From: a virus
Strand: one strand, 5' to 3'
Length of the DNA stretch: 24,673 nt
IMG/VR virus record: IMGVR_UViG_3300027747_000650
Location: 1 to 24,673 of that record
The notes beneath the pieces are model-generated. The model ran no database searches. It was not told where the DNA came from and was given only the letters and a program-made list of their open reading frames with translations. The translations under genes and the position numbers were made by a program. Positions 2,233 through 15,158 of this stretch are shown piece by piece (positions within the stretch are counted from its first letter, which is position 1; every line of letters starts with the position of its first letter).

Positions 2233-2694
2233 TTAAGCGGTTTGCTTTTCTTTTAGTTGCGGTTTCACGTGGAACGTCGCATCAACGTCGGTGTAGACAC
2301 CCTCAATGACGCGCGTTTGTGCTTGTTCTAATGCCTGAGTGATGCTGATGCGTTGCTCTACGTCGATGGACAGTTGCTGTTTTGCGACCCACCCGTGCTG
2401 ATGCTTTAAGATTTCTAATGCTGACTTTGCGTCGCCTGCTTTGGCAGCGTTGTGCAGTACGGTGGACATTTCCATCTCCCCGTCGGCGCGGCCTTTGAGT
2501 TCAGCCATCTCAGCAATCGGATCTAGTTGAATCAGTTGCCGGTACTCGGTAGGCAACATTCCAGACGCCAAAGCAAGCGAGTCACCTTTGAGTCCTAACT
2601 TGGAAGCGGCGTAGATTTTCTCTAGGCGTGACTCCGTAGCGCGAACCTGTCGCACTTCGTAAGGGAAGGATTGGAAGTTATCGAACATTTGCAT
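2233..2694 (-). CDS. terS: Probable terminase small subunit
   Basis: A 153-residue soluble, helical protein directly upstream of and abutting the large terminase. Residues 21-60 (SRLEKIYAASKLGLKGDSLALASG onward) look like a helix-turn-helix that could recognise packaging DNA. Residues 84-110 (AAKAGDAKSALEILKHQHGW) resemble the oligomerisation segment of small terminases that recruit the large subunit. Assignment rests mostly on position and size. No clear Shine-Dalgarno sequence precedes the ATG at 2694. A second ATG lies at 2688 (Met3), and a promoter-like element runs right up to the start, so initiation may be leaderless. It reads away from the origin-like region. Confidence 0.8.
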   Translation of the reverse strand: MQMFDNFQSFPYEVRQVRATESRLEKIYAASKLGLKGDSLALASGMLPTEYRQLIQLDPIAEMAELKGRADGEMEMSTVLHNAAKAGDAKSALEILKHQHGWVAKQQLSIDVEQRISITQALEQAQTRVIEGVYTDVDATFHVKPQLKEKQTA

Positions 2695-2723
2695 AGTGTA
2701 TCAAATTTCTTGCTAAGTGCTAA
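2695..2723 (-). promoter_or_regulatory. Candidate promoter for the terminase operon
   Basis: On the minus strand TTAGCA (2723-2718) is followed after 17 bases by TACACT (2700-2695), which is preceded by TGA as in an extended -10. The -35 matches the sigma70 consensus at 4 of 6 positions and the -10 at 4 of 6. Transcription would start near 2688, inside the annotated start of the small terminase gene. Confidence 0.4.
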
Positions 2724-2802
2724 TAAAAAATTTCTAAAAAAATAAAAAGTTTTTGCAAACGCTCCATCAGCGAACACACCTACGCCCAGGCCCTACCCGG
2801 GT

Positions 2803-2825
2803 GCTTTGCAGCCGAAAGCTTTTTT
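2803..2825 (+). terminator. Weak terminator-like hairpin
   Basis: GCTTT (2803-2807) can pair with AAAGC (2815-2819) around a 7-base loop, followed by six T (2820-2825). The 5-bp stem is short, and no plus-strand gene lies upstream. If real, it would stop plus-strand transcripts entering from the terminase side. Confidence 0.25.
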
Positions 2826-2904
2826 GCCAGTTAGCTTGCACCGAAAGCGATCGCTAGGCGTTTGCCATTGGCTTGTTGCTTAGAGTTTTAGGGGTGCCAT
2901 CCAT

Positions 2905-3021
2905 CATGGACAATGTGGACATTGTGGACAATTGTTTTTTATTGAATGCTTGGGGTGCCTAATAACTTTAGACTGTGGACAATATGGACAACTATTTTTT
3001 ATTTAGTCCACATTGTCCATG
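2905..3021. repeat. 16-bp exact inverted repeat within the box array
   Basis: CATGGACAATGTGGAC (2905-2920) is the exact reverse complement of GTCCACATTGTCCATG (3006-3021). Each arm carries two box cores. The 85-base spacer holds further boxes at 2923, 2974 and 2985. The arms could form a large hairpin or cruciform, or simply place two box pairs head to head. Confidence 0.85.
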
Positions 3022-3090
3022 TCATAACATGGGGCTAAAAACATGGACAAAATGCGTGGACATTTGTGGACATTGTGGACAAGTGGACAA
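2907..3090. repeat. Left array of GTGGACA boxes
   Basis: TGGACA cores start at 2907, 2916, 2925, 2976, 2985, 3044, 3057, 3067, 3076 and 3084, and two reversed copies lie at 3006-3019. Spacing of 9 bases recurs (2907/2916/2925, 2976/2985, 3067/3076). Several copies read TGTGGACAA, the complement of TTGTCCACA, which differs from the DnaA consensus TTATCCACA at one base. They may bind DnaA or a phage initiator. Confidence 0.85.
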
Positions 3091-3116
3091 TCGATTTTTA
3101 ATTGGTACAAGTTGAC

Positions 3117-3151
3117 TATATCTTGTTTAATTTTTTAACTTATAAGATATA
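3117..3151. repeat. AT-rich inverted repeat between the two box arrays
   Basis: TATATCTT (3117-3124) and AAGATATA (3144-3151) form an 8-bp inverted repeat around an A/T-rich loop with a TTTTTT run. It lies where the box orientation switches. This is the natural candidate for the DNA-unwinding element of the origin; that function is inferred from position and composition. Confidence 0.5.
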
Positions 3152-3162
3152 TACAAGTAACA

Positions 3163-3267
3163 TTATCCACATTATCCACATCGAGCGTTTATATGGTTCT
3201 CATGCCAGTTCGCCGCGTCCACATTCTTATCCACACCATGTCCACAATTGATCCAATTTTGTCCACA
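3163..3267 (+). repeat. Right array with three perfect DnaA boxes
   Basis: TTATCCACA occurs at 3163-3171, immediately again at 3172-3180, and at 3227-3235. Related boxes are GTCCACA at 3217-3223, TGTCCACA at 3239-3246 and TTGTCCACA at 3259-3267. TTATCCACA is the established high-affinity DnaA box of E. coli, so direct binding of the host initiator is plausible. All six boxes face rightward, opposite to most of the left array. Confidence 0.85.
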
Positions 3268-3278
3268 AATTAACAATT

Positions 3279-3296
3279 AATTATTTGCAAATAATT
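3279..3296. promoter_or_regulatory. 18-bp perfect palindrome, candidate operator
   Basis: AATTATTTGCAAATAATT is a perfect dyad. It extends imperfectly outward through AACAATTA on the left and TGTT on the right. It lies 26 bases upstream of the -10 element of the rightward genes, about where a regulator would act on that promoter. The binding protein is unknown. Confidence 0.5.
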
Positions 3297-3318
3297 GTTG
3301 TGTTGTTGTAATAAATTT

Positions 3319-3327
3319 TGATACAAT
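3319..3327 (+). promoter_or_regulatory. Extended -10 promoter for the small-gene cluster
   Basis: TGATACAAT combines an extended TG with a -10 hexamer TACAAT (5 of 6 to consensus). No good -35 is seen at 17 bases; TTGTTG repeats lie at 3295 and 3303. It is followed by an AAAGGAA ribosome site and the ATG at 3371. Confidence 0.5.
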
Positions 3328-3370
3328 AGAATCTAGCAACAAATTAATTAACTCAACTAAAGGAATCTAA

Positions 3371-3697
3371 ATGAGCGTAACAGATGAAAACAGATTAAAA
3401 GAACAAGTTTCCCACATTGTCAACACCATCCAAGATGGATATTTAGACGATGAAACTGGGGAGGTAATAAGTGGCTTTGATTACCTAACTGATGTACTTG
3501 ACATTGAATACATTGTCGATTCAAAAAAGCAATACTTGGGGGCTAGAATTTTAGTGGCTTTTGGTGGGCCAAATATTTGGATTAATACTCGCACTCAACA
3601 AGTTGAGGGGTATTGGTGGGGTAGCACATCCATCCAGTCATACAACAACGATGAGATGGACATCGATGGTGCATTGTCTGAACTTTATAACTGTTAA
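3371..3697 (+). CDS. Conserved hypothetical phage protein (108 aa)
   Basis: First gene of the rightward small-gene cluster. Residues 34-65 (SGFDYLTDVLDIEYIVDS, then YLGARILVAFGGPNIWINT) and the following VEGYWWG form a compact pattern I recognise from hypothetical proteins in diverse phages and plasmids, but no function is attached to it. It is acidic and soluble, with no membrane segment or catalytic motif. A strong ribosome site (AAAGGAA, 3359-3365) precedes the ATG by a few bases. Downstream of the origin-like region and a promoter with a palindromic operator, it is probably made early. An early-acting host-takeover or replication-modulating role is possible but not shown. Confidence 0.75.
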   Translation: MSVTDENRLKEQVSHIVNTIQDGYLDDETGEVISGFDYLTDVLDIEYIVDSKKQYLGARILVAFGGPNIWINTRTQQVEGYWWGSTSIQSYNNDEMDIDGALSELYNC

Positions 3698-5559: not shown

Positions 5560-7872
5560 TTACTTGGATTTGACTACTTGGGGGGTTGGTATGTCCTCAA
5601 CTGCCCTTCTTAATTCTGACTTACTCAAACTCAACGCAACTTCTGGGGCGGCAAAAATATGCTTTTTAGTGTCAAACTCCCTTGATTTTAACCTCCCACA
5701 ATCCACCCAATTTGCTTCTTTTAAAGCGTGAAGGAGTGCGGCTTGTGGCACTTTAACATTGCTAGGGGCTAACCCAGTTAGACGATCGCAGAGAGCGTGA
5801 AAAGGTGAGCTAATCACCCCTTTTGTGAACTCCCCACTACGATTACGCAACATCTCGACAAGATATGATTCAGCCATAGACATTCCATGTTCGATAAGGT
5901 TAGATTTAAATTCAGTTGTAAAGGGTGGGGCAGATGGGTTGAAGTGACTTACATCACGGCTATGCAACCACGCTGAAATCGACTCGAAACCCCCATTTTG
6001 GTACCAATCCCACATTTTTTTAGCCTTGTTTGAGTCCATCTTTGGGGCTGCCGACCATACGCAAAACCATCTTCTATCCTGGGACGCTAAACTAATCGGA
6101 ACAGGGTCATTAGAAAACGCTAAAACGAACAGTCTATTTGCCATTTGGTATGGGTGTAAGCCTTTGCGATTAATTGGCAACATCTCTGGGGGCGCTGCAA
6201 TGATTGGCTTAAGTTGGTTAGCTAACTGCCTACGTGCTGCGGCATCCGGTTCTTTCAATTCGTTAATGATGAGAATCTCAGACTCTAATTGATAACCCCA
6301 CTGGCTAGTCACGCTATTACTATCCATGATCCCACGATTCTTAAGGTGTGGCCCACAGACTGCCCAGATGAACGGCGCCCACATAGTGTCTTTTCCAGAC
6401 CCCTCATCACCACCATGCAAAACGGCATGATTGATCTTGATGCGTGGGTTCTGCACCTTGAACGCCATGATGTCGAGTAAATGACTCAACTCCTCTGGCT
6501 CAGTAATCAACTCACGGCAATGGTCTAACCACGCTAAAACCGACTGATCATTCCCCTTGGCACCCTCAACATTTGGTCTAGCGTCACGCCAACGATTGCC
6601 AAATAAATCCCCATCACGGTTAACAATCACCGATTCACCGGCAGCATAGGTAATACCGACTAACGCCTTAGCTCCCTTGGCTTGCCTATTCTCATCGAAA
6701 CAATTTGACGCTAATATTCTGCTACCACTATGGATTGACTTGCAATCGATATGACGATAGAGCGCATTGAAAGTCTGACGGCTAACCTCGCGTCTGTCTT
6801 GCATATCGAAATATGATTCGTCATCCTGCACGTAAGCGAAGCGCTGATACCATTCCTCTTTTTCGACACGACCTAACTGTTTACGCTCAACTTCGGCAAT
6901 GTGGGCATCGGCATCGTTACTAAACATATCAGATGGGCTGATTTTAGCAAGCGCAACATTCATCGCTTCCGAAATGAGTTCTTCACGTAATCCATGAGCG
7001 ACTGTCGGGCCACCATTATCGGCAACCCACGCTAAAAACGACCTAGAATCGAAGTCAATACAATGCGAATGTAAGCAACAGTACGAACGATCCAACGGCT
7101 TGTAACGCCCCTCTGGATTGCCGTCGGTGTGTTCTGCATTGTTCGGACAGATAACGCCTAGCCACCCCTCACCATTAATTTTGGACAAGATGAGGCCTTC
7201 AGTATTAAGCCACGCTAACACGTTGTCGCTACCATTATCTGCTAATCTTAGCGGTTGATAATGGTTCGTATCAGCAGGCGCTGGGGTAACCCCCAACGCA
7301 TCGCAGATATCTCCTAAAGTATATTCGTTCAAAGGCGTAAACTCAACCAATTTTGCTTCAAAATTATTGCGACCAGGCTTCAGATTGATACTACCCGGCA
7401 AACGAACATTGCGTACCGCATTGCAAGCCCCTGCATCGGTGTAACCTGCATCGGCAATGGCTCGAATGGCTGCGGTAAACTCCCCCTTGGTCGGTTGTTC
7501 AGTAAACGCGTAGCCGTACTGAAAATTCCCCTCAGAAGTTTCTAAAATCCACGTTGGTGCAAGTGGTGGGGTCTTGGACTTGGTGCCAATGTCATCTAGC
7601 ATCATAAATAGAACATACTCGCAGTTAGACGCGCTTGCTGAGATGCGCCCATCCTCGAACCGGTCAATGATAAACGATGCAGTATTCACATACCACGCTT
7701 CCCCTGTTCGAGTCTTGGCAGTCGGCAAGTAAGCAGGCCATGTGCATTTGACTGCACCGTCTGCATGGAACTGCATCTCGTTGTTCTTCAGTTGTGGCTT
7801 TTGTCGAACGATTAACGCAGTTTCGCCTTCCGGTGCTAAGTTGATGATATAATCTAATAGATTTTGTTTCAT
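5560..7872 (-). CDS. Primase-polymerase / SF3-type helicase fusion (RepB primase + DUF5906-like)
   Basis: A 770-residue replication protein expected to prime and unwind DNA at phage forks. Residues about 55-180 resemble the RepB/archaeo-eukaryotic primase fold: LFMMLDDIGTK at 88-98 with a DD pair, WILETSEGNFQYGY at 108-121 and AVRNVRLPGSINLKPG at 152-167. A zinc-binding cluster follows (C242, H248, C265/266, H268, H270, C271). The C-terminal half is a D5/SF3-like ATPase: Walker A GGDEGSGKDT at 487-496, Walker B ILIINE at 533-538, sensor AFSND near 585-589 and an arginine pair at 600-601. This order is known from phage primase-helicases such as NrS-1-type proteins. A good GGAGAT ribosome site precedes the ATG. 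It is last in the leftward replication operon. The exact primase catalytic residues are not certain. Confidence 0.85.
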   Translation of the reverse strand: MKQNLLDYIINLAPEGETALIVRQKPQLKNNEMQFHADGAVKCTWPAYLPTAKTRTGEAWYVNTASFIIDRFEDGRISASASNCEYVLFMMLDDIGTKSKTPPLAPTWILETSEGNFQYGYAFTEQPTKGEFTAAIRAIADAGYTDAGACNAVRNVRLPGSINLKPGRNNFEAKLVEFTPLNEYTLGDICDALGVTPAPADTNHYQPLRLADNGSDNVLAWLNTEGLILSKINGEGWLGVICPNNAEHTDGNPEGRYKPLDRSYCCLHSHCIDFDSRSFLAWVADNGGPTVAHGLREELISEAMNVALAKISPSDMFSNDADAHIAEVERKQLGRVEKEEWYQRFAYVQDDESYFDMQDRREVSRQTFNALYRHIDCKSIHSGSRILASNCFDENRQAKGAKALVGITYAAGESVIVNRDGDLFGNRWRDARPNVEGAKGNDQSVLAWLDHCRELITEPEELSHLLDIMAFKVQNPRIKINHAVLHGGDEGSGKDTMWAPFIWAVCGPHLKNRGIMDSNSVTSQWGYQLESEILIINELKEPDAAARRQLANQLKPIIAAPPEMLPINRKGLHPYQMANRLFVLAFSNDPVPISLASQDRRWFCVWSAAPKMDSNKAKKMWDWYQNGGFESISAWLHSRDVSHFNPSAPPFTTEFKSNLIEHGMSMAESYLVEMLRNRSGEFTKGVISSPFHALCDRLTGLAPSNVKVPQAALLHALKEANWVDCGRLKSREFDTKKHIFAAPEVALSLSKSELRRAVEDIPTPQVVKSK

Positions 7873-7948: not shown

Positions 7949-9919
7949 TTACTTTCCATAACGCTGCATTGTATTTACTTCAATGTTTAATGGTAATCCT
8001 TGCGCCCATGCCGGTGGAGTACACATCACCTCTTGCATCTTCTGCGTTACCGCTTCTGGTTCGGATGTTTCCACGACTATTTCATCATGTATGTGTAAAA
8101 CCACATCATCCAATTGACGTAGTGAATGTCGAAGTAAATCATTGGCAACGGCTTGCGTAATGTTCTCGCAGGCAAGCCCTCTCCATAATCTGCCACGTGG
8201 CCATTCTGTTGCGTCTGCGGCAGGTTTCCATGCTGATTTGGCATAAGTAACTCCATCTGGTTCTAACTTTGCGAATGGATAGCATAACACACGACCGCTT
8301 GGAAGTGCATACCATAAGTGTTGACCATCAAACAGATAAGCCACACGCCCTGCGCTAAACTCGCGCCCAACATTACGCATGGCTCTGGTGTAAGCGTTCT
8401 CTAAATTCTGCCATAAATCGACTGCCCAAGGGTTTGCCATACGCCAAGCGTTAACCATCTGCTTGGCTAAAGGCTCTGGCAACGATACACCGTAGACCTT
8501 ACCCATTGCAGCAAAGGCACCCACACCACCAGCAAAGCCACACGCTAACTCTTGCACCTTACCTAGTTGACGCTGACTGTCAGACACTTGATCAACTGCC
8601 ACCCTAAAGGTCGCACTTGCATTGTGCTTATAAACATCAGCACCAGTACGGAACAAGTCTAACTTCTGCACACCAGATGGGCAATTAGATAGCCAAGGGT
8701 TTACTCTTGCTTCAACTGCTGACCAATCGGCTACTACCAAGGATTTTCCGTGCATCGGTATAATTGCTGGTCGCAACATTCCTTTGAGTACGTCGGTAAC
8801 TCGCTTTCCGTAAACAGGCACAATTGCGTGGCTTCTAACCATTGCTTGCCTGACGGCGTCGGGTTCTTTAGCACACTTTCGGGTGAAGTTGTGGACTTGG
8901 GCGCCGTAGCTACTTGCTCTGCCCGTAGCACTTCCACCAGCAAACACGAACGCTCCTCGAACTCGTTGATCTTCAACATCGGCTAATTCCTTTAATCGTT
9001 TAAATTTGGCTACGCTCGACGCCCATAGGTCATCAGCGCATTGGATAACATCTGCCACGTTTGGCGGCACTTGTTCTGGATTTTCTTGCGCAAGAACTAA
9101 TAGATTAGCCCTTACCGACTTGTCAATGGAATACTTCTTGACATCATCTTTGTAAATTTCCATCAGTTTCTTAGCTTCATTACCGACACGTGCAAGCACC
9201 CACTCACGCATCTTGGTGCTACGAACTGAGGTAATTTCCCCCTCAGTCACTTCAGTTACAATCTTCTCAATTTCTTCTAACTCGACACTTGCATAACCGA
9301 TGGCTGCGTTACATAAGTCGGTGTCGATTAAAACCCCCCTGTCGTTGATGCGCTCATTCACATGATAGTCAGCCAACTCCTCATCCGATAACTGGCGCAT
9401 GGCCTTGCTAATCGCACGCATAGCACGAACGTCTTGGCTGCAATAAGAAATCATCTCAGCCATTAGCGTAAGGTCGTCATTGAATGCACCGTCAGCTTTA
9501 GGAATAGACAACAAACGAATGAGTTGACTGCCACGGTGATCCTTACGCATATTGGCACCACTAAAGCGACCGACATCTTCGAGTGAACCTGGCGCGCAGT
9601 TGGCACGTGCTTGTGTTGCGGTGCAATAGAACTGCTCTAACTTTGGTTCGGGGATGCCGTAATCAGGGCATAAGACATACCAAAAGATTAAACGCTCAAA
9701 CGCAGCGTTATGCGCCCTAATCTGACCGCCTTGTTGGATAAAGTCAATAATTTGTTGTGGGAATGGTTGACTAGGCACCCATGTCTGTACATCTTCATCA
9801 TTGAAAGCATAGGAAAGACACAGCACCGAAGTGCTGATGTCCTTGGCATAGTTGTAGCCACCACGACTGATAAGGTCACAACGGCTACGCGTTTCAAAAT
9901 CTAAATAGAGTATTGTCAT
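7949..9919 (-). CDS. Family A DNA polymerase with 3'-5' exonuclease
   Basis: A 656-residue replicative polymerase. The proofreading domain has Exo I DFET at 7-10, Exo II HNAAFER at 70-76 and Exo III YCSQD at 159-163. The polymerase domain has motif A VVADWSAVEARV at 395-406 (metal Asp398), motif B R450-QLGKVQELACGFAGG (O-helix, Lys454) and motif C HIHDE at 609-613 (Asp612). All catalytic residues are present. The length matches the compact pol A found in many phages; no 5'-3' exonuclease domain is present. It lies between the probable DNA-binding protein and the primase-helicase. No clear ribosome site precedes the ATG at 9919, so efficient translation may depend on another mechanism, or the start may be slightly different. 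Confidence 0.95.
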   Translation of the reverse strand: MTILYLDFETRSRCDLISRGGYNYAKDISTSVLCLSYAFNDEDVQTWVPSQPFPQQIIDFIQQGGQIRAHNAAFERLIFWYVLCPDYGIPEPKLEQFYCTATQARANCAPGSLEDVGRFSGANMRKDHRGSQLIRLLSIPKADGAFNDDLTLMAEMISYCSQDVRAMRAISKAMRQLSDEELADYHVNERINDRGVLIDTDLCNAAIGYASVELEEIEKIVTEVTEGEITSVRSTKMREWVLARVGNEAKKLMEIYKDDVKKYSIDKSVRANLLVLAQENPEQVPPNVADVIQCADDLWASSVAKFKRLKELADVEDQRVRGAFVFAGGSATGRASSYGAQVHNFTRKCAKEPDAVRQAMVRSHAIVPVYGKRVTDVLKGMLRPAIIPMHGKSLVVADWSAVEARVNPWLSNCPSGVQKLDLFRTGADVYKHNASATFRVAVDQVSDSQRQLGKVQELACGFAGGVGAFAAMGKVYGVSLPEPLAKQMVNAWRMANPWAVDLWQNLENAYTRAMRNVGREFSAGRVAYLFDGQHLWYALPSGRVLCYPFAKLEPDGVTYAKSAWKPAADATEWPRGRLWRGLACENITQAVANDLLRHSLRQLDDVVLHIHDEIVVETSEPEAVTQKMQEVMCTPPAWAQGLPLNIEVNTMQRYGK

Positions 9920-10692: not shown

Positions 10693-11814
10693 TTATTGAA
10701 TTTTAGAAAGGGCCGCGGTGAGTTGCTTCCCGATGTTTACCACGGCTGGGCGTGAATCATCTTCACGCGCCAACGTACTGCCGCTACTTACTGCTACTAC
10801 TAAGTCGTCAGGCAATTTTGCGCCTAACTTCTTGAGTTCTTTTTCTGCTTGCGCAGGGGATACAATCGACTTCTTAAACGCATCAATACCTAAGTCGGCT
10901 AGTTGAACGCTTGCTTCAGTTTCATTCGACCATTGGCGTGTAGCACGCTTGTTGACCAACTTCCACCCTGGCACAGGCTTATCATTCTCAAGCATTTGAA
11001 ATGCTAATGCTCTCAAGTCTGTAATCCATTGTTCTAACAAGTCACAGTTTGCTAAGTATGCACCAATTCTCTGCGCGTCTAATGATTCTAAACTTGTATG
11101 CAACGCGCGGTCAACTGCACCAGTCATTTGTGGGCAAGTCGGCTTGGCTGCGCACCATCTGCAATGCTCACCTGCCTTCATGGTTGCCGTTTTCTTTTCT
11201 GACTCGTAAACTGCGTGTTGGAGTTGTGTTTCAAACTGCGCAATACGCTCTTTAGTCGTCACCCAACGTCTAATCATAGGTGGCTGAATAATGACACATT
11301 CAATTGCATCAACACCATCAAACGCCCACTTCGCTGATTCAGTACGCATGGCTGCGGCAGCATAAAACATCAACTGTTCGTTTTCTTCTACGCTAACTGC
11401 TACGCCATCACCAAACTTCCAGTCGAGTACGATTGCGCAATTACCGATACGACCAATTAAATCACATGAACCAAAGACATTAGGTAAGAAGTCACCAAAA
11501 TTAACTTTAGTTTCTACTGCATATTCCATCTCAAGCTTAGGATCTACTTCATGCAATAGTTTTAAAGCCCCCATTAATTTGTTGTCAATTAATTCTTGCG
11601 TTAATACTTGGTCGTTATACCTCATACCAAGCAAAGACTCTGGTGGTATATCTGAACCTAATACTTGTGCAATTGCGTCATGCAGTAATGTACCTTCATC
11701 GGCATAGCTACTGCTTGGCTTTGGTGGCATCTTAGCGCATAAGGCAACCGATGCTGGGCAGTTAATAACCCTTTTAGCAGTTGAGCCGCCGACGATATTT
11801 GAATGATTAGCCAT
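10693..11814 (-). CDS. DUF2800-like PD-(D/E)XK nuclease with Fe-S cysteines
   Basis: A 373-residue RecB/Cas4-type nuclease. The active site is visible: EGTLLH at 40-45 (His45), GSCDLIG with Asp118, VLDWKFG with Asp131 and Lys133, and NEQLMFY with Gln147/Tyr151. Four cysteines fit the Cas4/AddB-type 4Fe-4S pattern: one near the N-terminus (C19, with C26 also near) and a C-terminal trio C218-x2-C221-x5-C227. Such enzymes resect DNA ends; in this operon it may process replication or recombination intermediates or degrade host DNA. It begins with a TAATG overlap with the 65-aa gene and is followed 12 bases later by the probable DNA-binding protein. The fold and catalysis are inferred from motifs; the family label is from memory. 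Confidence 0.85.
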   Translation of the reverse strand: MANHSNIVGGSTAKRVINCPASVALCAKMPPKPSSSYADEGTLLHDAIAQVLGSDIPPESLLGMRYNDQVLTQELIDNKLMGALKLLHEVDPKLEMEYAVETKVNFGDFLPNVFGSCDLIGRIGNCAIVLDWKFGDGVAVSVEENEQLMFYAAAAMRTESAKWAFDGVDAIECVIIQPPMIRRWVTTKERIAQFETQLQHAVYESEKKTATMKAGEHCRWCAAKPTCPQMTGAVDRALHTSLESLDAQRIGAYLANCDLLEQWITDLRALAFQMLENDKPVPGWKLVNKRATRQWSNETEASVQLADLGIDAFKKSIVSPAQAEKELKKLGAKLPDDLVVAVSSGSTLAREDDSRPAVVNIGKQLTAALSKIQ

Positions 11815-12086: not shown

Positions 12087-12383
12087 ATGGAAATTAAAAA
12101 TAAATCAGAAAGTGAGTCAGAAATTGAAAAATACTTCATTTGGGCAGTTGCGTCACTCGGTGGCAAAAGTTTTAAATTCAAGTCAATTAATCATCGTGGG
12201 GTGGCTGATCGAATTGCTTGTCTACCTGACGGCTCGACCTGGTTTGTCGAAATTAAACGGCCTAAAGGTGGTCGCCTATCGCCTTTGCAAGTTTTATTTG
12301 CGGAGGAAATGGCAAAACTAAATCAAAATTACGCGTGTCTGTGGGATAAAAATCAAATAAACGAATGGAAAAATAAACTATGA
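12087..12383 (+). CDS. VRR-NUC domain nuclease (98 aa)
   Basis: A stand-alone VRR-NUC protein of normal size for phages. Conserved features are GVADRIACLPDG with Asp41, FVEIKRPKGG with Glu55 and Lys57 (E-x-K), and the following LSPLQVLFAEEM helix with the Gln. These make up the PD-(D/E)XK active site. Stand-alone phage versions are proposed junction-resolving or flap nucleases; in this phage the enzyme would trim replication or recombination branches. It is the first gene of the rightward replication unit, and its stop overlaps the methyltransferase start (ATGA). No convincing -35/-10 pair was found for this strand, so the rightward promoter is unidentified. Confidence 0.9.
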   Translation: MEIKNKSESESEIEKYFIWAVASLGGKSFKFKSINHRGVADRIACLPDGSTWFVEIKRPKGGRLSPLQVLFAEEMAKLNQNYACLWDKNQINEWKNKL

Positions 12384-13837
12384 AAATACGATTTGGTAGT
12401 GTGTGTAGTGGCATTGAAGCCGCTAGTGTTGCGTGGCATCCTTTAGGTTGGGAAGCTGCGTGGTTGTCCGAGATTGAAAAATTCCCTTGTGAAGTGCTAA
12501 AGCATCATTACCCCAATACCCCTAACCTTGGCGACATGACTTTACTTGCCGACAAAATACGGTTAGGTGAGATAGAAGCCCCCGATGTATTTTGTGGCGG
12601 CACACCATGCCAAGCTTTTAGCGTAGCAGGACTACGGCAATCCCTTGACGATAGCCGTGGAAACTTATCATTAACTTTTTGTGAGATCGCAGATGCAATT
12701 GACGAACGTAGACTTATTCAACAATCCAATCCAACCATTATTTTTTGGGAAAATGTGCCAGGAGTCCTCAACACCAAAGACAACGCCTTTGGATGTTTTC
12801 TTGCAGGACTTGCCGGTGAAAGCGACGCACTCATCCCGCCAGGGAGCAGATGGACAGACGCTGGTTTTATTGATGGCCCCAAAAGAGCAGTCGCGTGGAG
12901 GACACTCGATGCCCAATATTTCGGCTTGGCCCAACGTCGGAAGCGAGTGTTTGTTGTCGCAAGTGCTAGAAACGACATCTGTCCCGCAGAGATACTTTTT
13001 GAGTTCGAAGGCGTGCGACGGGATACTTCGCCGAGCAGAAAAGAGGGGCAAGAAATTGCCAATTGCCTTACAAAAAGCCCTTCAAGCCACAGCAGCTATA
13101 ACCCAGCAAGAAGTGAAGGAAATGCCGTAGTAGTTGAAAAAGTAGGTACTTTATTAGCGAGAGATTATAAAGGCTTAGGTTCTTTTGACCACGACAAAAT
13201 GATTGTTTCAAAAATTGGCTATTGCAATGATTTAGCCCCTACACTTACCTCAAGTGCTGCAGGTATTAGTAGAGTGGGCAATGATACTACTGCCGATGCA
13301 CAATATGTGGTTCAACAAGCTATTGCGTTGGCTGAAAACACAATTGGTAGACAACCCCAAAATGGTGGTAATGGCAACGGTTTTACTGAGAACGGCCCAA
13401 TGTATACCCTCAATGCGACGGGTGTACATGGGGTGTCTTATGGGTTTGAGCCTGGAATTGCAAAAAGAGAAGGTGAACCTAATCGGTTTGTTGAAGAACA
13501 AACACCAACATTAAGAGCCAATATGGGGGACAACCAAACTGCTGTGGTTCACGCTTTTAAAGTGCGTGGTGGTTGCGAAGGTGGTGGTAAAGGTTATTTA
13601 GGTCAAGATGAAAAAGCATTTACTATATCAACTACGCAAGACCAACAAATCCATCACAACATGGCGGTCAGAAGATTAACCCCAATCGAATGCGAGCGTT
13701 TGCAAGGTTTTCCAGATGGATACACAAATATCAAGCCTAATTGCCCAGATGGCCCACGTTATAAAGCGTTAGGTAACTCATGGGCGGTGCCTGTAGTGGC
13801 TTGGATTGGTAAAAGGATTAATGATGCAATTGCGTAA
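12380..13837 (+). CDS. DNA cytosine-5 methyltransferase (Dcm-like)
   Basis: A 485-residue m5C methyltransferase. Motif I FGSVCSGIEAAS at 5-16 binds SAM, motif IV GGTPCQAFSV has the catalytic Cys77, motif VI ENVPG starts at 124, motif VIII QRRKRVFVV starts near 185, motif IX RRLTPIECERLQGFP is at 431-445 and motif X GNSWAVPV at 465-472. A variable region of about 240 residues between VIII and IX holds the target-recognition domain and is Gly/Asn/Thr-rich, as in other large phage Dcm proteins. No cognate restriction enzyme is nearby, so the likely role is protecting phage DNA or marking it. It is coupled to VRR-NUC upstream, and its 3' end overlaps the helicase start. The recognition sequence cannot be predicted. 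Confidence 0.95.
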   Translation: MKIRFGSVCSGIEAASVAWHPLGWEAAWLSEIEKFPCEVLKHHYPNTPNLGDMTLLADKIRLGEIEAPDVFCGGTPCQAFSVAGLRQSLDDSRGNLSLTFCEIADAIDERRLIQQSNPTIIFWENVPGVLNTKDNAFGCFLAGLAGESDALIPPGSRWTDAGFIDGPKRAVAWRTLDAQYFGLAQRRKRVFVVASARNDICPAEILFEFEGVRRDTSPSRKEGQEIANCLTKSPSSHSSYNPARSEGNAVVVEKVGTLLARDYKGLGSFDHDKMIVSKIGYCNDLAPTLTSSAAGISRVGNDTTADAQYVVQQAIALAENTIGRQPQNGGNGNGFTENGPMYTLNATGVHGVSYGFEPGIAKREGEPNRFVEEQTPTLRANMGDNQTAVVHAFKVRGGCEGGGKGYLGQDEKAFTISTTQDQQIHHNMAVRRLTPIECERLQGFPDGYTNIKPNCPDGPRYKALGNSWAVPVVAWIGKRINDAIA

Positions 13838-15158
13838 ATACCAAGAAAAGGCTGCCGACTTTCTTTATGAGAACAACCGAGCCATGATTCTTGCGCCAGT
13901 CGGTGCAGGCAAGACGGCTCTTACCCTTATAGCCATGCAAGATATGCTGCGCTACAAGTTTGTCAAGCGTTGGCTAGTGTTGGCGCCCAAGCGTGTCTGT
14001 ACTGATGTGTGGCCGGTTGAGCAACCCAAGTGGGCTACCGATATGCCGATTGCCGTAGCAGTTGGCACCCCAGCACAACGCCTGCAAGCCCTACACTCTG
14101 GCTACCCTGTGGTGGTGACGAACTACGACAATATTCAATGGTTGTCCGAACAAAAGTTAGACTTTGACGGCGTAGTATTTGATGAGTTGACCAAACTCAA
14201 GAACCCATCCGGCAAACGCTTCAAAGCGTTGATGAAAGTGTTAGAACCCATGCGCATCCGTTGGGGCTTGACCGGATCGTTTACTTCCAACGGCTTAGAA
14301 GATGTCTACGGCCAATGCAAAGTGGTGGATGAATCCCTACTTGGTCGGTCTAAGGGCGCGTTTATGCAACAGTATTTTGTCTTAATCAACCGTGATTTCG
14401 GTGAATGGGAGCCAAGAGTAGGGTCACTCACGCAGGTCATGGAACGTATTAAGCTTGCTACGTTTGTGCTAGATGCAGGCGAATACAAGGACAAGTTGCC
14501 ACCATGCCATGAGGTTGAGTTAAGGGCGACAATGGCAGACGACAAGCCGTACAAAGCGATGAAGAAAGACTACGCCGTACAGTTTGCCAAGGAAATTATC
14601 ACCGCCGTTAGCGCAGCAGCCGTTACACAGAAGTTGCAACAGATGGCGTCTGGCTTTGTCTACCAGACTGAAACGACACCATCCAATACCCCTGGTCGCA
14701 TGAACGTGACGAAAGTACCGATTTGGTTTAGTAGCCATAAGTTTGATTTGCTAGATGATTTGCTTGAGGAGAACCAACACGCCAATACCATCATTGTTTA
14801 CAATTACATCGAGGAGTTGGCAGAACTCAAGCGTCGCTATCCTCATGCCCAGACGATTAATGATGAGAAGGTTATCGAGCGTTGGAATGATGGCAAGGTT
14901 GAATTGTTTTTGCTACACCCCAAGTCAGCAGGGCATGGGTTGAATCTTCAGTTTGGTGGCAACAAGATGGTGTTTGTATCGTTGCCGTGGAGTTTAGAGT
15001 TGTATGAGCAGACTGTTGGTCGTCTGCACCGTAGTGGTCAAACAAAAGAGGTATGGGTTTACATATTAGTAACAGAGGGTACGATTGAGAATCGTATATT
15101 AACCGCCTTGAAGGATAAAAAGGCATTATCGGAAATAACTATGGAAGAATTGAAATGA
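13824..15158 (+). CDS. SNF2-type superfamily 2 helicase/translocase
   Basis: A 444-residue compact SF2 ATPase. Motifs are Walker A APVGAGKTA at 24-32, motif II VVFDEL at 117-122 (DELT rather than DEAH), motif III LTGS at 149-152, motif V SAGHGLNL around 368-375 and motif VI QTVGRLHRSGQ at 396-406. The QxxGRxHRxGQ box is diagnostic of the SNF2 group. Phage members are found in replication modules and probably remodel forks or displace proteins from DNA. The frame extends upstream to a TTG at 13806, but AAAGGA about 7 bases before the ATG at 13824 supports that start; an ATG at 13821 is also possible. It overlaps the methyltransferase end by 14 bases and the next gene by four (ATGA). Confidence 0.9.
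   Translation: MQLRKYQEKAADFLYENNRAMILAPVGAGKTALTLIAMQDMLRYKFVKRWLVLAPKRVCTDVWPVEQPKWATDMPIAVAVGTPAQRLQALHSGYPVVVTNYDNIQWLSEQKLDFDGVVFDELTKLKNPSGKRFKALMKVLEPMRIRWGLTGSFTSNGLEDVYGQCKVVDESLLGRSKGAFMQQYFVLINRDFGEWEPRVGSLTQVMERIKLATFVLDAGEYKDKLPPCHEVELRATMADDKPYKAMKKDYAVQFAKEIITAVSAAAVTQKLQQMASGFVYQTETTPSNTPGRMNVTKVPIWFSSHKFDLLDDLLEENQHANTIIVYNYIEELAELKRRYPHAQTINDEKVIERWNDGKVELFLLHPKSAGHGLNLQFGGNKMVFVSLPWSLELYEQTVGRLHRSGQTKEVWVYILVTEGTIENRILTALKDKKALSEITMEELK

Follow-up and report, generated by a model that had tools for sequence, protein, structure and literature searches.

The α protein of P4 is about 770 aa long, and the P4 origin (ori) carries type I repeats. P4 α binds its origin repeats through a winged helix (PMC4234260); iterons are bound by the C-terminal domain in SaPI Rep and Cch2, and SaPI5 Rep is likewise a primase-helicase (PMC7581432). 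The mode of action described for P4 α and SaPI Rep (PMC4234260, PMC7581432, PMC7145576) is the one that we propose here for a phage protein. In the NrS-1 primase-polymerase-helicase (6k9c/6k9e), which is the closest solved helicase by sequence to this protein, the fold of the Tail domain was called novel by its authors, who could not place it, and no origin role was described (PMC7102993). In PLEs, origins and initiators change together, escaping an origin-directed nuclease (PMC8263062). We analyzed a repeat array upstream of the small terminase subunit gene (terS) of a lake phage, which is very probably an iteron origin whose reader is a self-loading primase-helicase encoded by the phage itself and working like P4 α or SaPI Rep.

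The window analyzed is the entire virus record of 24,673 bases, and this 24.7-kb record is probably a fragment of the phage genome. By its gene content, the window probably belongs to an epsilon15/P22-type (epsilon15-like) podovirus; a P22-type head closure match was found, and TerL (706–2232) is 36% identical to that of epsilon15 and 67–73% identical to those of two uncultured or lake phages. No direct DNA relatives of the window were found in the phage collection; relatives located inside MAG contigs carried mixed host labels, and these contigs are probably binned phage contigs. The array sits between the divergent terS (2233–2694, minus strand; annotated as terS in the relative OR003940), which forms its left border, and a set of small rightward genes starting at 3371. 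About 2.3 kb, with small ORFs in between, separates the array from the end of the gene encoding the 770-aa primase-helicase (5560–7872, minus strand), a putative initiator by co-variation (see below). This protein contains a DUF5906 SF3-type helicase (Pfam E 8.9e-10), and its N-terminal primase region gave a weak match to RepB_primase (RepB/AEP-type) with an E of 3e-4, below the Pfam cut-off; no Toprim domain was found in it by Pfam. A family A DNA polymerase (PolA; 7949–9919) follows, and the other genes in the window include those for an exonuclease, a holin, an M15 peptidase, and structural proteins. The window also encodes a C5 cytosine methyltransferase (12380–13837), whose gene overlaps that for an SNF2-type helicase (13806–15158); both are opposite in direction to the replication genes.

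The array (2905–3268) comprises 18 distinct TGGACA/TCCACA box cores in 361 bases (between 2907 and 3267), while the maximum in order-1 Markov simulations of the window (n = 300) was five boxes per 361 bases. Ten boxes form a left cluster (2905–3091) reading TTGTCCA(C/T)A on the minus strand, i.e., TGGACA on the plus strand, with cores at 2907, 2916, 2925, 2976, 2985, 3044, 3057, 3067, 3076, and 3084; the full TGTGGACA is present in only five boxes left of 3090. Two boxes within the left cluster (3004–3022, plus strand; AGTCCACA and TTGTCCAT, cores at 3007 and 3014) face the opposite way, and a "++" pair is also found within the left cluster of many relatives. A gap of 73 bases (3090–3162), which is 79% AT and represents a putative unwinding element, is followed by a right cluster of six boxes on the plus strand (3163–3268; three copies of TTATCCACA and one each of GCGTCCACA, ATGTCCACA, and TTGTCCACA), all six of which read TCCACA, opposite to the left cluster. 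The perfect TTATCCACA boxes are located at 3163–3171 and 3172–3180, which abut exactly, and at 3227–3235; TTGTCCACA occurs four times in the array. A spacing of nine bases recurs at four places (2907/2916/2925, 2976/2985, 3067/3076, and 3166/3175). The first-pass annotation of this DNA had reported 18 cores in about 360 bases, three perfect boxes, two abutting DnaA boxes, a nine-base spacing, and a switch in polarity around an AT-rich segment; our analysis reproduced all of this, with 10 versus 2 boxes on the left and 6 of 6 on the right. It had also proposed a switch in cumulative GC skew as a check; the skew within the window follows gene orientation, and the extremes in five long relatives are not consistently at the array.

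Using TerL and the primase-helicase as queries, we recovered about 150 loci, later about 300, from IMG/VR, from which a comparison set of 195 distinct arrays (about 200 relatives) was assembled, with terS as the locus landmark; a box class was called in 175 of these, with classes that were defined after the first data set was seen and with some arrays being weak. A dense array was present at the matching place, upstream of terS, in almost all readable relatives (175/195 called). When loci were aligned at terS, approximately half had no TGGACA array, and nearly all of those had another dense array there. A search for the array in related phages, which had been put forward as a check of the original reading, thus showed that the dense array and its layout are kept and that the box sequence differs. 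Eight box alphabets were distinguished, namely TTRTCCACA, ATGACYCACA, ATGACTAACA, CTTACA (i.e., (A)TTGCTTACA/ATGACTTACA), GCCAACA (TAGCCAACA), ATGACCCAAA, TTTGAC/TGACAAT, and GTTTACAT. The arrangement of minus-strand boxes, AT gap, and plus-strand boxes persists across these alphabets; the fraction of boxes fitting it was 0.83, as compared to 0.67 with shuffled orientations (169 arrays). The AT gap in relatives has class medians of about 52–103 bp and is 60–73% AT, except in the small GTTTACAT class (two arrays).

To compare phage proteins as predictors of box class, we counted the box-class changes needed on the tree of each protein. On 71 shared loci, the TerS tree needed 17 changes, the TerL tree 16, and the primase-helicase tree nine; sliding windows along the primase-helicase (108 loci) went from 29 changes at residues 1–106 to 6–7 at residues 645–770. 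With windows of equal length on 66 shared loci, TerS, which served as a negative control for the box reader, needed 14–16 changes and TerL 8–14, as compared to just five for primase-helicase residues 675–753. On the same rows, PolA needed 11–18 changes versus 4–7 for the C-terminal end of the primase-helicase, and the exonuclease 7–9 versus five. Because TerS is nearest to the array and is yet a poor predictor, physical linkage is not the reason why box class is tracked. As judged from these trees, box class tracks the primase-helicase C-terminus and not TerS, TerL, PolA, or the exonuclease. TerS was rejected as the box reader, given its 14 or more changes in every window, and so were PolA and the exonuclease, which were no better than background; a nucleotidyltransferase was also no better than background, in a 36-row set without discriminating power. 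Small genes located between the array and the primase-helicase gene were likewise rejected as readers, since no ORF family in this interval was present at more than 65 of the 123 loci, the most frequent one being the translation of the array itself.

Within the C-terminal part, column 734 was the best single predictor of the window's box class among all 770 columns, followed by column 731. Both fall in a six-residue segment, 729–734 (KSREFD; 5671–5688, minus strand), in which the residues at 729, 731, and 734 are predictive of the box sequence. Among the 195 distinct arrays, those with D734 included 83 of class TCCACA, five of class ACCCACA, and seven uncalled (e.g., L086, L087, and L091), and none of the 87 called arrays lacking D734 was TCCACA (all 87 belonged to another class; 13 were uncalled). 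R731 was accompanied by ACA-ending boxes in 132 of 132 called arrays, and arrays lacking R731 carried GACCCAAA (23 arrays), TTTGAC (18), or GTTTACAT (two); K729 was associated with CACA boxes. By loop, KSREFD or KSRRYD is paired with TTRTCCACA, KSRAHT with ATGACYCACA, MSRDYT with ATGACTAACA, ASRDYT/L with CTTACA, ASRAYQ with GCCAACA, ASGDFQ with ATGACCCAAA, and ASADFK with TTTGAC. On trees built without the C-terminal part of the primase-helicase, 12 of 12 independent pairs were concordant for D734 in the first set, and approximately 20 of 23, with none discordant, in a larger tree; independent pairs also linked R731 with ACA (16/16, larger tree) and, among R731 proteins, K729 with CACA (about 12/12). 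Of the called D734 arrays at loci fetched after the rule had been seen, 48 of 51 were TCCACA and three ACCCACA, and a clade that is about 60% identical and has KSRR.D loops carries TCCACA boxes. The R731 rule is broken by the two GTTTACAT arrays, whose boxes have an ACA ending although R731 is absent; these exceptions and the uncalled D734 arrays indicate that other residues matter too. With these exceptions in mind, we consider it reasonably probable that residues 729, 731, and 734 set the alphabet and that loop and array have switched together repeatedly, giving incompatible origins. We hold with similar, moderate confidence the code proposed from these associations, in which R731 would correspond to the C of the terminal ACA, K729 to a C in place of A/T at the position two bases ahead, and D734 to TCC.

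AlphaFold2 modeling of residues 631–770 with 56 relatives (mean pLDDT 82, about 81–94 over the winged part) together with structural matches predicted a C-terminal winged-helix domain at approximately residues 665–741 (5650–5880, minus strand), with the order helix, strand, helix, helix, strand, loop, strand. In this model, the last two strands are joined by the loop at 729–734, which forms the wing and has residues 729, 731, and 734 at its tip, and helix 710–719, the usual reading helix, hardly varies among relatives. The full-length primase-helicase was modeled poorly (pLDDT 38). The structures matched by the domain model are winged helices, at moderate scores (Z no higher than 6.3), and Foldseek against PDB gave no match with E < 0.001; the P4 origin-binding domain was absent among the Foldseek matches listed, which is no evidence against it, and a sequence profile of the domain found nothing credible in PDB and Pfam. 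The NrS-1 polymerase Tail (6k9e_B 618–718) aligns with the winged-helix model (Z 4.4, rmsd 3.0, 71 residues), which suggests, as far as the model goes, an origin-binding role for this unexplained Tail domain in NrS-1-type polymerases.

The array is thus a candidate replication origin, well supported indirectly by its iteron layout, AT core, and conserved position and by its co-variation with an initiator-type helicase; binding, melting, priming, and origin function are what we infer for the array and the primase-helicase. Because the box class changes in step with the loop, the phage most likely starts DNA copying with its own protein. As judged from co-variation only, the C-terminal domain would set iteron specificity. 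We propose that the C-terminal winged helix would bind the boxes, with the wing tip determining which box sequence is read, and that binding in two orientations could assemble a pair of helicase rings directed toward the AT core, which they would then open; the N-terminal primase may make primers that the phage PolA would extend.

Like P4 α, the primase-helicase combines a primase, an SF3-type helicase, and a predicted C-terminal winged helix for origin binding in a single protein (PMC4234260), and, like P4 ori, the array has short repeats and an AT-rich region. However, P4 has a Toprim (DnaG-type) primase where a RepB/AEP-like match is found here, and a second repeat site (crr), of which no counterpart was seen here (in each of five long relatives, the 500-base stretch ranking second in box density contains just 2–4 boxes); the box alphabet here also varies widely among close relatives. 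With SaPI Rep, SaPI5 Rep, and SCCmec Cch2, the protein shares the design of a self-loading helicase with a C-terminal domain for short iterons, with both self-loading and iteron binding being predicted here. In contrast to SaPIs, in which the origin is directly downstream of rep, the array lies about 2.3 kb away, beyond small genes, and, unlike SaPI and SCCmec, the window represents a phage with its own PolA and not a satellite or island. The locus does have the short repeats, the AT-rich segment, and the non-coding stretch of an iteron origin, along with a phage SF3/DUF5906 helicase of predicted hexameric type with a putative C-terminal DNA-binding domain; since the narrower P4 and SaPI definitions failed on primase type, second site, and position, we regard it as the same kind of device and a member of neither family. 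Bacterial oriC also has TTATCCACA-type boxes and an AT-rich element, but the boxes here differ in sequence from one relative to another, in step with a phage protein.

In the first-pass annotation, opening of the AT core had been ascribed to host DnaA or to a phage initiator acting at the same site. The three perfect TTATCCACA boxes, the four TTGTCCACA boxes, and their dense array around an AT core fit host DnaA, and the relative MW202483 encodes a DnaA domain-IV protein. However, in the other box classes, which share the place and layout, TTWTNCACA either is absent or occurs at or close to the chance level, and even the TCCACA class averages only 0.61 perfect E. coli boxes per array versus 4.88 for TTGTCCACA; DnaA domain IV was found in one of 39 records searched, and it is the loop of the phage primase-helicase that predicts box class. 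As the box sequence varies while the layout stays constant, with DnaA boxes at or near chance, or absent, elsewhere, a host protein with one conserved site cannot explain the arrays, and opening of the core by host DnaA is very unlikely. The notion of a host-dependent design falls along with it, and the alternative of a phage initiator is favored. The likeness of the window's boxes to DnaA boxes stems from an overlap between the TTRTCCACA alphabet and the DnaA consensus, and the best reading is that it is incidental. Iterons and DnaA boxes are combined in some phage and plasmid origins, and the perfect DnaA boxes in the window could mean that host DnaA is additionally captured by TTRTCCACA boxes, as a helper or decoy beside a primary phage initiator; this is rather unlikely, as DnaA boxes do not clearly exceed chance in relatives with other alphabets, suggesting that DnaA is not generally needed. 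A phage-encoded DnaA domain IV was rejected as the reader, being present in MW202483 only and absent from the 38 other records searched. In MW202483, the lone domain-IV protein is encoded at 7083–7379 (minus strand) and the array belongs to the GTTTACAT class; an annotated homing endonuclease gene (10712–11158) lies between array and terS in this phage, recalling origin-associated nucleases.

Initiators commonly autoregulate, and the array's position between divergent genes would also suit operators for terS and the early genes, with the primase-helicase as an autoregulator and not an origin binder. We consider this quite unlikely, since 18 boxes, an AT core, and two-sided polarity exceed what operators need, the domain proposed to read the boxes is part of one polypeptide with a helicase, and sigma-70-like sites between 2600 and 3500 are not above shuffles. 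That the boxes form a packaging (pac) site for the small terminase would agree with terS adjoining the array in relatives and starting about 210 bp to its left in the window, but the 14–16 changes for TerS against five for the primase-helicase C-terminal segment make this extremely unlikely. Just as improbable is a role of the boxes as template sites used by the N-terminal primase, instead of as sites bound by the C-terminal domain; TGTGGACA does contain GTGG, an efficient site preferred by the related NrS-1 primase (PMC8718748), but box class is predicted worst by the primase end (29 changes) and best by the C-terminal end.

The proposed reading of the array by the phage's own primase-helicase implies a warning, in that what looks like a dense "DnaA-box" array in a phage can be a set of iterons for the phage's own helicase. 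How an initiator and its origin can shift specificity jointly while the replicon survives is an open question. Such co-switching becomes directly testable with the natural pairs of initiator and origin compared here, which number about 195, span at least eight alphabets, and share a short loop that can be read. Initiator and origin specificities also switch together in the PLE RepA/ICP1 Odn system; however, PLE RepA belongs to the RepA_N family, has no helicase, and switches through replicon exchange, as compared to a wing-tip change here. By analogy, PLE-like nuclease pressure on these phage origins is plausible, and origin-alphabet switching in lake phages perhaps provides escape from origin-directed parasites or competing phages. 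One hybrid locus, L136, carries upstream of terS (segment 169–723) a remnant TCCACA left cluster adjoining a complete GACCCAA array, and its primase-helicase has a GACCCAA-type loop, matching the complete array, as if the locus had been caught in mid-switch; this suggests that box-class switches may occur via recombination of array and loop.
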